Positions 21,647 through 26,132 of a stretch of 64,000 bases of DNA are shown here, in pieces (the stretch's first letter is position 1; each line of letters begins with the position of its first letter). Both the position numbers and the translations under genes were made by a program. This DNA is from an uncultured Candidatus Poseidoniales archaeon (GTDB lineage Archaea; Thermoplasmatota; Poseidoniia; Poseidoniales; Poseidoniaceae). The notes beneath the pieces were generated by a model that was given only the letters and a program-made list of their open reading frames with translations, was not told the DNA's origin and did no database searches. The DNA lies in NCBI GenBank assembly GCA_905182715.1, contig CAJJCP010000022.1, positions 1 through 64,000 of the forward strand. Reading direction: 5' to 3'.

Positions 21647-22114
21647 CTATCTTTTATTGTGGGGCGGCCAAGAGCGGAATCCTTTAGTCGATTCTCGGTC
21701 TGCAAATACATGGATTCGAACGGTTTCACCGTCGATGAGAATTGCATCATCTGCATCTATACCAGGGCAGGCATCTTTCACTTTATTCCATGCTCGGTCT
21801 GTTGCTAAGTTTTCACTCCACCATGGGAATGCTGCGCATTGTTGGGGGCGAACTTCATAAATCGAGCATTGCTTCTTTTCATCTAAATAAATACAGATTC
21901 CATCATCGGGACGGCTGTTTAACACGTATCGCCCATCGAGTGTTTGTCGACAATCGCGTTCAAGCCAGTCTTCGACATTCATTTCATGTTCTGCTGAAAT
22001 TCGTTCAGCATCTGTAATGGAGAGGTAAACAATACCACCAGGCTCGTCACAACATCTTCCGCAACTTGACTGGCAAGAGAAGGCAACGCCCTTCATCCAC
22101 CACGGCGCTCTCAT
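21647..22114 (-). CDS. YkgJ-family cysteine-cluster protein
   Basis: CQSSCGRCCDEPGGIVYLS, CSIYEVRPQQCAAFPWW. Confidence 0.85.
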   Translation of the reverse strand: MRAPWWMKGVAFSCQSSCGRCCDEPGGIVYLSITDAERISAEHEMNVEDWLERDCRQTLDGRYVLNSRPDDGICIYLDEKKQCSIYEVRPQQCAAFPWWSENLATDRAWNKVKDACPGIDADDAILIDGETVRIHVFADRESTKGFRSWPPHNKR

Positions 22115-24141
22115 TCCTCTTCACCTTGGAGTCTGCTGGCGGTGGGATTGAGTCGTCCAAGTCGAATCTTCCGAATGTTCTCACTTTCGAGCAAGTCCGA
22201 CATTTCGACATCTTCGGCGTCGATATTCCATTCACCTTCAGGCTCATGACTCTCTAAATGTTCGATGGGTGAAGTCGCTTTTTGACGGCCAACGGTACGC
22301 TTTTTCTTTGAAGGTGTTTCCGATTCCATCTCTGGCCAAGGTTCGCGTTCAGGATCTAAATCAATGAGATTCCCTTCCATTGCTCGCAATTCATCAGCAA
22401 TCAAAATCAATTCATCCAGTGATGCCTCTGGTGTTCTATCATGCATGTTAGCCAACTTTGATTCGATCTGAGCGAGTTGAAGAGAACTTTGTCTTAATTC
22501 AGTTTCAAAAGAATGTATCTGTGCGTCAAATGCTCCGTCCAACTCAGTAAGTAAGTCTGCAGCAAGTCCATGGTCTCGTTCCTCAATGTGGCCTTTACGA
22601 GTGATGAGGTGTTCTTCCCGCTCATGTAAGGCGAGAACCGAAGGCGCAGCAGGAGCGGTATCTTCGAGTGCGACCTTGAGGTAAGCGGCATGTCGAGCAT
22701 CAGATTCGTCAGCCATAGCTTGCGTATCAATCGCAGGAGGCTGATACAAATCATCACCAATTTCAGGAAGTTCAGAATACAGGTCGATTCCACCATACAC
22801 GGTGTCGCTGTACACGGTATCCACAGCTGAAGTGACCAAACGTGTTGCAATATCCTCGACATTTTCACGTATATCTGTGACTAACGGCCCACGCGCCTCC
22901 ATTTGGTTTGACAGGAGTGCAGTTACATCATCGCCATCGAGAACATTTTGACCCGATTGAAGGGCAAGAGCGACCAAATCGAAGTTTCCTTTGGTTGCTC
23001 TCCATCCCACAGTATCTTGTAACACGATGCTTGTAAGTTGTCCGTCATCCAGCATAAGGCTCTTTTTTTGAGCTAAATTACGTGCGTACAAGACCATACT
23101 GGCAGGTTTTGGAGTTTCGAGATGTACTGAGGCAGCATGACGAGTTAACTCCCACAAACGAGATGCCGGCCAAACATCCGGTTCAGAATTGGAAGAGAGA
23201 AGGACATGAACTCCCATATTGAGTGCATAATCGAGCATTGTACCCAGTTCATGCGCCAGTTCGGGACTCATGGCATGCTCATGGAGGTCATCAATAGCAA
23301 GTAATCTTGCATTCACGAGCGTATCTTGCCACCCGTCTGGTAAGCGTTCCAGACCGGACAAATCAGGCGTTGAGAGAAGGTAGACATTCCCTTCTTGACG
23401 TCGTAGAACTGCCTGAGCAGTTGCATGAAGAAGATGAGAGCGCCCAGTTTCCGAAGGTCCAATGAACATCAGCGGATTGAGTGAGCCTCCAGGGGAATCA
23501 ACAACAGCTTCAGCCGCTTGGGTAGCGCGAAAGTTTTCGTCGGTGATGAACCATTGCTTGAAACTCATGCGAATTTCAGGCCGCAAACGTGGAGGCCAAG
23601 CACCTTCTGTTGGGAGAATGACATCATGGTGGAACGGCGAGTCCGAATCAACGGGGGCTAAATCTGCCGGTAAGGTGACAGATGCACGGCCTCGTTGGTC
23701 ATCGAGAATACGTTCCCATACAGGGCGACCATCCTCTTCCATTCCGAAGTAACCATCTTCAGTTTCTTCCGTACCTTGTTCTATTTGCTCATAGGTTCGT
23801 TGGCGTAAAGACCGAATGCGTCGAGCAGCGATATCAGCGAGTGAATCGCTCTTCGAAGTGAGTTCGAGTGCTGGTCTTCTGCGCTTACTTTCTTTCCCTA
23901 ACACTTTGTCAGCAACGATATCAAATGTCGGTCGCTCGACAATACCTGTTCGTTGCAGAAGCGTTCCTTGACGTTGGTCTTGGACGCCCTGTTTCCCAAT
24001 TAATCGATTCATTTTCGAGAGGGGTGGTGGGGTTTGATTGTCTGATTGTATGGTGATTTTGTGGAGTCCAGTTCCATTCTCATTGAGTTGTTGCTTTGCT
24101 AACTTCAACGCAAGAGCTAATTTTTCACGTCGGGCGTTCAT
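22111..24141 (-). CDS. DnaA/Hda-like AAA+ protein with degenerate Walker A
   Basis: SFKQWFITDENFRATQAAEAVVDSPGGSLNPLMFIGPSETGRSHLLHATAQAVL and RLLAIDDLHEHAM...HVLLSSNSEPDVWP...RLWELTRHAASVHLETP follow the order of the bacterial DnaA AAA+ core. ATGA overlaps on both sides. Confidence 0.75.
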   Translation of the reverse strand: MNARREKLALALKLAKQQLNENGTGLHKITIQSDNQTPPPLSKMNRLIGKQGVQDQRQGTLLQRTGIVERPTFDIVADKVLGKESKRRRPALELTSKSDSLADIAARRIRSLRQRTYEQIEQGTEETEDGYFGMEEDGRPVWERILDDQRGRASVTLPADLAPVDSDSPFHHDVILPTEGAWPPRLRPEIRMSFKQWFITDENFRATQAAEAVVDSPGGSLNPLMFIGPSETGRSHLLHATAQAVLRRQEGNVYLLSTPDLSGLERLPDGWQDTLVNARLLAIDDLHEHAMSPELAHELGTMLDYALNMGVHVLLSSNSEPDVWPASRLWELTRHAASVHLETPKPASMVLYARNLAQKKSLMLDDGQLTSIVLQDTVGWRATKGNFDLVALALQSGQNVLDGDDVTALLSNQMEARGPLVTDIRENVEDIATRLVTSAVDTVYSDTVYGGIDLYSELPEIGDDLYQPPAIDTQAMADESDARHAAYLKVALEDTAPAAPSVLALHEREEHLITRKGHIEERDHGLAADLLTELDGAFDAQIHSFETELRQSSLQLAQIESKLANMHDRTPEASLDELILIADELRAMEGNLIDLDPEREPWPEMESETPSKKKRTVGRQKATSPIEHLESHEPEGEWNIDAEDVEMSDLLESENIRKIRLGRLNPTASRLQGEEE

Positions 24142-26132
24142 TTCTTAGCACCTTCCAATTCCTTTCGCAATCGTTCTCTGTCTTCGACTTCCCAAACACT
24201 GAGTTTCATTTCGACCGATGATTCAGTCTGTTGGCGTGAAGCGGATTCACGAACCGTTTCGTCTGTTTGCGACGGACTTTTGACGCCAGGTCGAGCCAAT
24301 AAAGGTGTGAGTTTCGTGTGAGTATTGATCGGTTGACGCCCATGTATCGCTTCGAGGGGGCGTTTTGGAAGTGGCGTTTCAGGGAGATTCAATTCTCGAC
24401 GGTTGTTCTGCTGTCGTGTCGCATCATTGAGCGATGAATCACTCTTTGCAGAATCTTTCACACGCATACTTTCGACCGCTTTCTTTTGACGCTCATCGTA
24501 ATCTTCAAGAGAATTCGAAAAGGAGTTGTGTGGTGTTCGGTTTGAACCTCGAATGTCAATCAATTCTTTTGCATCATGTGCATTAGCGGCAGCCGCTTGG
24601 ATGCCTTGTTGATTACGGGGGGGCGTCCGAGTTACAGTCGTTTTACTGCGCCGTCGGATTCGCTGTGCTTTCCGTGGTTGACTGACGGTGTGCTTTCCAT
24701 CCATCGGATGTGCGGGAGTTGATGTGAGAGTTTTCTTGTCTGGCTTGTTTGAAATTGGTTCAAGAGGTACTTCCTGAGATTCATTCGTATTGTTATGGCT
24801 TTGAAGGACCATTTGGTCGGTGAGAATATCAGCTTGTTCAGTTCGGGTCGATGTTTCCATGGTCTCAGGTTCAATGTAGACGTCGTTGTCTTCGAGAGGT
24901 TGTACCGCTGGCGTAGCCCATTCTCGAGCTACTGTGCTCAGTGATTCAGTTGCGGCTTGAACATCTTCAGAATCTGGCGTTTCAAGTCCACCTTCCATCG
25001 TTCCAAATACCGTCGATTGCGGAGGGATAGAGCCTGATTCGGAAGGTGAAATCGCCAGTTGTAATTGTTGTTCAATCCATTGACGTTCTTCTTCACTTGG
25101 TTGTGCGCAAAGTGGATGGTCGAGAAGCAAGTCGGGTTCAAGATTCCAGTTTTCAAGCACAGACGGCTCAAGGTCAGTCATGTAACGTGACAAATTCTGT
25201 CGTGTTGTAATTGGGAAGGCATTGAAATCCCCAGTAGCCAAAAACAAATGGTCCTCAAGGCGCACACCATCGACAATATCACGCAAGAAATTCACGATAC
25301 GGTCATCGCCATGGAGGCTTGAGAGGTATTCAATTCCCTCAAGAACAACAACGGCGCGTAGATTCTCCCAAAGGAAAGCATCTATCTTTCTGCGGATATT
25401 TTCCAATGTAGGTTCAGTCGAGCGTACATCGCCATTTTGAGATAACCATGAACTGGAGGCGATTGGAATGTTGTGTTCAACATTGAGCGCTTCTATTTCA
25501 TGCCGAGCCAGTACGAATAACGGGCGTCCATGAACGGCGAGATGCCCGGCTAGATCGAACATCGGTGCAGGATCCTTCGAGTCAAAGAAATAGGCATCTC
25601 CTGGCCGTAACATTTTCTCGATTCCATCAAAACGTTGCATCATTGCTTTGCTACGGTGTCGAATTGCTTCAGGTGCTTCGACCGTGACTTCGAGTTCAGG
25701 TAAGCGTTCCTGACGCCTCCAACTGCTTGTTCTCAATTTTGAATTCGACCACCATTGATGACCATCATCTGTTTGTTGCTTTTCTTCATCGAGCTGAAAG
25801 TGTGCTTCGGGGTGGAGATTGAGGATTTGATTGAGGTCAGATGATGGTAGTTCGTGAATCGCCAGTAAAGCATCAACGAGTGCAGCATCACTTTCAATAT
25901 CCAATAACGCTTCAAGAGACATGGAGATTGCATCTGCTTCATGCAATGCTAACATTGGCTTTCCTTCACGGAATACAATGAGCCCAATACGAGGCATTTG
26001 CTCTTTGGGCCGACGTTCGATTCGGATATAACCTGAGGTGCCTAATCGGGCGATATCCATGGACAGTATACGCAGTGATTCAGGTCCGCCACGGCGAACT
26101 TCTGTTACATCTCCTTGCGGCAGTTCCACCAT
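24138..26132 (-). CDS. DUF835 domain protein with PATAN/DUF4388-like N-terminal region and long disordered C-terminus
   Basis: GDAYFFDSKDPAPMFDLAGHLAVHGRPLFVLARHEIEALNVEHNIPIASSSWLS...TLENIRRKIDAFLWENLRAVVVLEGIEYLSSLHGDDRIVNFLRDIVDGVRLEDHLFLATGD matches the DUF835 pattern. Confidence 0.78.
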   Translation of the reverse strand: MVELPQGDVTEVRRGGPESLRILSMDIARLGTSGYIRIERRPKEQMPRIGLIVFREGKPMLALHEADAISMSLEALLDIESDAALVDALLAIHELPSSDLNQILNLHPEAHFQLDEEKQQTDDGHQWWSNSKLRTSSWRRQERLPELEVTVEAPEAIRHRSKAMMQRFDGIEKMLRPGDAYFFDSKDPAPMFDLAGHLAVHGRPLFVLARHEIEALNVEHNIPIASSSWLSQNGDVRSTEPTLENIRRKIDAFLWENLRAVVVLEGIEYLSSLHGDDRIVNFLRDIVDGVRLEDHLFLATGDFNAFPITTRQNLSRYMTDLEPSVLENWNLEPDLLLDHPLCAQPSEEERQWIEQQLQLAISPSESGSIPPQSTVFGTMEGGLETPDSEDVQAATESLSTVAREWATPAVQPLEDNDVYIEPETMETSTRTEQADILTDQMVLQSHNNTNESQEVPLEPISNKPDKKTLTSTPAHPMDGKHTVSQPRKAQRIRRRSKTTVTRTPPRNQQGIQAAAANAHDAKELIDIRGSNRTPHNSFSNSLEDYDERQKKAVESMRVKDSAKSDSSLNDATRQQNNRRELNLPETPLPKRPLEAIHGRQPINTHTKLTPLLARPGVKSPSQTDETVRESASRQQTESSVEMKLSVWEVEDRERLRKELEGAKK

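Follow-up and report, generated by a model that had tools for sequence, protein, structure and literature searches.

A DnaA domain III-type AAA+ protein with altered ATPase motifs is encoded beside a DUF835 protein in Poseidoniales archaea

The window analyzed here is a stretch of 64,000 nucleotides from an uncultured Candidatus Poseidoniales archaeon (contig CAJJCP010000022.1, positions 1 to 64,000). It encodes on its minus strand a DnaA-like AAA+ protein, P0001, that lies between the genes for a DUF835-containing protein, P0002, and for a CxxCxxCC protein. The genes and features of the locus are given in window positions:

21647..22114, minus strand: CxxCxxCC protein, downstream of P0001 and here in the same operon, with an ATGA overlap
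22111..24141, minus strand: DnaA-like AAA+ protein P0001, 676 aa (ORF; orthologues in 60/60 same-genus genomes)
22912..23571, minus strand: DnaA domain III-like AAA+ core and lid of P0001, residues ~191-410 (Pfam Bac_DnaA, TIGR00362, hhalign)
22999..23001, minus strand: sensor-2 Arg381 (GWR), with Arg in 57/78 Poseidoniales
23110..23163, minus strand: box VII region SRLWELTRHAASVHLETP, residues 327-344, with Leu332 at the arginine-finger position (alignment to DnaA DRLRSRF)
23188..23208, minus strand: sensor-1 region HVLLSSN, residues 312-318, in which the polar residue varies
23287..23304, minus strand: Walker B LLAIDD, residues 280-285, with the second Asp in 76/78 Poseidoniales
23437..23460, minus strand: Walker A GPSETGRS, residues 228-235, with Arg234 in place of Lys (orthologue conservation)
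24138..26132, minus strand: P0002, 664 aa, N-terminal domain plus DUF835, upstream of P0001 (ORF, Pfam, synteny)
25215..25544, minus strand: DUF835 (inactivated KaiC-like) domain of P0002 (Pfam)
25788..26132, minus strand: GYIRI domain, N-terminal in P0002, weakly DUF2226-like

An initial annotation, made from the nucleotide sequence, had reported the ORF of P0001 without a strand and had assigned it to an archaeal host. This ORF was confirmed, and its strand is the minus strand. A search of 60 same-genus genomes, among them its own, found the gene in every one, so that neither a sequencing error nor contamination accounts for it; contamination is further ruled out by the synteny of the locus in dozens of archaeal genomes. 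The host is confirmed as an archaeon of the Poseidoniales (Marine Group II). The DnaA core pattern that had been read from residue 193 onward starts with the entry motif SFKQWF...AVL, and the motifs that had been named follow in the order given, i.e., Walker B, HVLLSSN and the box VII-like stretch RLWELTRHAASVHLETP. The P-loop with Arg for Lys was likewise found as described, the Arg234 codon being CGC. Pfam reports Bac_DnaA with 37.5 bits (cut-off 23) for residues 191-322 and otherwise only a sub-threshold AAA match. The C-terminal DnaA-box helix-turn-helix domain (domain IV), which had been noted as absent, has no Pfam match in P0001. Residues invariant among the orthologues include W142, W380 and D441. 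P0001 ends in GEEE (window 22114-22125), a tail that is common to most orthologues.

The AAA+ domain of DnaA is regarded as a part of bacterial replication, and archaea are expected to initiate replication with Orc1/Cdc6. When a profile of 31 P0001 orthologues (A1) was searched against the PDB, B. subtilis DnaA ranked first with E=9.6e-22, followed by EccCb1 (5e-5), DnaC (5e-4), IstB (0.02) and Hda (0.8), and the alignment to B. subtilis DnaA extends from the entry motif past box VII and reaches into the lid. Orc1/Cdc6 gave no match to P0001 or to this profile among the NCBIfam or PDB results, and neither Cdc6/Orc1 nor IstB is preferred over DnaA. On P0001 itself the NCBIfam models for DnaA (TIGR00362, residues 191-387) and Hda (TIGR03420) score 41.5 and 40.6 bits, both far below their equivalog cut-offs of 343.9 (full-length DnaA) and 194.8 bits, respectively. 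Distant relatives from other Thermoplasmatota families reach 102-228 bits with Bac_DnaA and 287-352 bits with TIGR00362, and two of the ten scanned exceed the cut-off of the latter. Over 232 aa, the AAA+ region of one of them (L099) shares 57% identity with domain III of B. subtilis DnaA, and L099 scores 352 bits with the DnaA profile vs. 123 bits with the Hda profile. By hhalign, positions 190-448 of the Poseidoniales profile match these relatives, in which the AAA+ domain is fused to DUF835, with E=9.1e-27 and a probability of 99.7. Foldseek also ranked DnaA domain III first for the predicted AAA+ model, yet the TM-scores were about 0.37 and the predictions, made from alignments of 5 and 4 rows, had a pLDDT of 45-46, so that little weight was put on this ranking. 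It is well supported that P0001 carries a DnaA domain III AAA+ region, the resemblance being modest when P0001 is taken by itself and strong in its relatives. The earlier assignment to the DnaA/Hda family is corrected in that the family is closer to DnaA, which ranks first in profile and PDB searches, than to Hda. A gene in a sister-family MAG (G374, L097:3093-4466) looks like genuine DnaA from bacteria, its C-terminus being of the domain IV type; it is probably contamination and was left out of the analysis.

Orc1/Cdc6 was detected in 100 of 100 relatives searched, with or without the DnaA-like gene and in 98 above the cut-off. This rules out P0001 as a replacement of Orc1/Cdc6. The own genome shows a weak TIGR02928 match at a separate locus (C32); the weak or apparently absent Orc1/Cdc6 fits the assembly completeness of 73%.

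The stop codon of P0002 overlaps the start codon of P0001 (ATGA), and at the Poseidoniales loci examined a P0002-type gene lies directly upstream of the P0001 orthologue wherever the contig reaches. In the sister family both genes are present in the same 10 of 40 genomes, and the pair stays together at loci in which the CxxCxxCC gene is inverted; as the latter holds for most sister-family loci, the CxxCxxCC protein probably does not belong to the unit. Outside of the Poseidoniales, an N-terminal domain, the DnaA AAA+ domain and DUF835 are encoded in this order in a single ORF at 12 fetched loci (the N-terminal domain being absent in L093), and when the phylum sample was searched with a profile of the fused proteins, about 18 genomes gave long matches within a single ORF. 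The fused relatives also carry a zinc ribbon. By this order, the core of P0001 matches the central part of the fused protein, and P0002 matches both of its end parts. A partnership of P0001 and P0002 is well supported by gene order and fusion, and the two proteins may form a physical complex. P0001 shows both sequence characters of what we call here the DnaA-DUF835 family of Thermoplasmatota, i.e., the AAA+ homology and the linked N-terminal domain and DUF835, here encoded in the upstream gene. The initial annotation is supported in part; it had overlooked this pairing, and the fusion in other Thermoplasmatota is the best clue to the function.

Further arrangements of the AAA+ domain were seen elsewhere. 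In two proteins (L094:4995-6587 and L098:5350-6954) the DnaA AAA+ domain shares a chain with an N-terminal part of the Fn3 type and an apparent membrane segment; in L098 the gene adjoins genes for KaiC and for a 7TM-DUF835 protein. L083:3270-7085, L087 and L088 encode proteins about 1200 aa in size that lack DUF835 and have a DnaA-type AAA+ region after long stretches resembling coiled coils; the one in L083 also has zinc ribbons. In the own genome, a second DUF835 gene region lies beside a zinc-ribbon/EF-hand-like protein (C13, L133:4074-4712).

DUF835 has been labelled iKaiC, i.e., an inactivated KaiC domain (PMC5847659). KaiC-family genes were found near fused or related genes at five loci (L091, L096, L100, L098 and L094), and a scan of 57 neighbours revealed zinc-ribbon domains in 10 and Ras-like GTPases in two. 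Within the sister family, a close KaiC homologue accompanies the DnaA-like gene in 9 of 10 genomes, and 1 of the 30 that lack the gene has such a homologue. At 24-38% identity to Poseidoniales KaiC, the neighbouring KaiC proteins may not be its orthologues, which was counted against the best explanation. One or two events of genome reduction may explain the co-occurrence; as the genomes are related, the independent events are fewer than they appear, so that neighbourhood and co-occurrence together constitute moderate evidence, pointing to a possible link to KaiC. Partners from the archaellum and from chemotaxis were ruled out: archaellin (PF01917) is present in two genera without the gene (g4, g11) and absent in two with it (g7, g12), and none of the 100 relatives has CheF. 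The own genome also contains three tandem KaiC-type genes near V-type ATPase genes (C34, L131:7890-10102), of which the second and third are apparently degenerate.

The state of the ATPase motifs was counted in 78 sequences from Poseidoniales and in 19 from other Thermoplasmatota. At the position of the Walker A Lys, the Poseidoniales sequences have Lys in 30, Arg in 42 and Cys in 6 cases, and the Lys is kept in 19/19 sequences outside, for which reason it is most likely ancestral; on a quick tree the position changed at least six times. The K-to-R change is thus shared by many orthologues but not fixed, since 30 of the 78 retain a normal GKS/GKT motif. The position of the arginine finger, which we take to be the second Arg of the DnaA box VII motif DRLRSRF, was assigned by alignment to this motif. 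A finger is present in 16/19 sequences from other Thermoplasmatota and in 0/78 Poseidoniales, which have Leu, Val, Ile or Ala instead. The loss of the finger is thereby wider than that of the Lys, and sequences with the Lys but without the finger would fit a loss of the finger prior to that of the Lys. Between Walker A and Walker B there are 41-46 residues, compared to 49-51 in the majority of intact relatives, which suggests a shortened initiator-specific region.

The dN/dS ratio of the AAA+ domain is 0.04-0.08 in four pairwise comparisons, mostly below that of the flanking regions, and 0.08-0.11 for the whole of P0001. Together with the retained Walker B motif, this indicates a maintained protein and not a relic. 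A decaying relic without function, as the repeated loss of catalytic residues might suggest, is therefore highly improbable: besides the purifying selection, the gene is present in every genome of the genus searched, the Arg at the Walker A position is kept through all six Arg codons, and W142, W380 and D441 are invariant. There is a slim chance that the protein is still an active ATPase, in which the Arg supports nucleotide binding and another subunit supplies the finger in trans. The Walker B Asp pair and the sensor-2 Arg are mostly kept, the exchange of Lys for Arg is conservative and maintained, and a Walker A motif with Arg may still bind ATP. However, six sequences have Cys at this position, two catalytic features are lost, and no candidate partner that would donate a finger was found.

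Two further explanations place the protein at DNA or at the replication machinery. An Hda-like regulator of replication acting on Orc1/Cdc6 or on the PCNA clamp would account for the missing domain IV and for the shortened stretch between Walker A and B, as the initiator-specific region is shortened in Hda as well, and the Hda and DnaA models score almost equally on P0001. Yet no clamp-binding (QLxLPL-like) or PIP motif was present in any orthologue tested, the intact relatives are far nearer to DnaA, 30 of 40 sister-family genomes have Orc1/Cdc6 without the DnaA-like gene, and the constant partner is the DUF835 protein, which makes such a role decidedly unlikely. A regulator binding single-stranded or promoter DNA, with the AAA+ domain as a scaffold coating the DNA, is unlikely too, albeit in line with the Walker A-B spacing in the intact relatives, where it is as long as in domain III of bacterial DnaA, with the basic patch SKKKRTVGRQK near the C-terminus of P0001 and with the zinc ribbon of the fused relatives. 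P0001 lacks domain IV, the basic patch is missing from some orthologues, and none of the Poseidoniales sequences counted has the finger that ATP-bridged filaments would be expected to need.

The explanation that we somewhat favour takes P0001 as a subunit derived from the AAA+ domain of DnaA, impaired in its ATP cycle, that works together with the DUF835 protein in regulation of the KaiC type and not in initiation. In the other lineages, the AAA+ domain between the N-terminal domain and DUF835 would presumably form an ATP-dependent assembly switch within one chain. In the Poseidoniales the module would have become a separate subunit encoded beside its DUF835 partner, and ATP cycling between neighbouring subunits is probably gone, since the finger is lost in all Poseidoniales seen and the Lys was lost repeatedly. 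What would be left is a protein that serves the DUF835 protein as a structural partner in signalling of the KaiC type and perhaps senses nucleotides, and P0001 may, as proposed by the initial annotation, be a hydrolysis-impaired scaffold or regulator. A more far-reaching scenario, which we regard as possible but rather doubtful, is that an archaeal phylum captured the ATPase domain of a bacterial DnaA and made it an oligomeric, ATP-driven switch of KaiC-based signalling; in the marine Poseidoniales it would then have become a separate subunit, lost the finger and repeatedly the P-loop Lys, and persisted as a pseudo-ATPase whose binding alone controls its DUF835/KaiC partner.

The DnaA-type AAA+ domain itself is known; new are its architecture and its host, and no report on archaeal DnaA-DUF835 proteins was found in the open-access literature searched. 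An archaeal family spread across Thermoplasmatota joins DnaA domain III to a KaiC-like domain. Automatic annotation can therefore label archaeal signalling proteins as DnaA, given that two of ten scanned relatives score above the DnaA equivalog cut-off. For studying the origin of pseudo-ATPases, the family provides a natural gradation of ATPase decay, from members with intact motifs through those without the finger to those without the Lys.

Compared to known systems, P0001 shares with DnaA domain III (PF00308, TIGR00362) the order of the AAA+ core, the entry motif (SFKQWF in P0001, TFDNFVVG in DnaA), NPL before the P-loop, the Asp pair of Walker B, the box VII region and the lid with the sensor-2 Arg. 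It differs from DnaA in having no domain IV, no match to domains I/II, a shortened Walker A-B stretch, no arginine finger and a replaced Walker A Lys, and its archaeal host has its own Orc1/Cdc6. With Hda (TIGR03420) it has in common a DnaA-type AAA+ domain without domain IV and a shortened initiator-specific region, but it lacks the clamp-binding motif, is much longer and has a different partner, and its intact relatives score far lower with the Hda than with the DnaA profile. Orc1/Cdc6 (TIGR02928) likewise belongs to the AAA+ initiator superfamily and occurs in the same genomes, although as a separate gene whose profile and PDB entries do not match P0001. Unlike the DUF835 (PF05763; iKaiC) proteins and archaeal KaiC-like ATPases, P0001 has a DnaA-type AAA+ domain and not a RecA/KaiC fold; DUF835 resides in the adjacent P0002, and other Thermoplasmatota have these parts in one chain.
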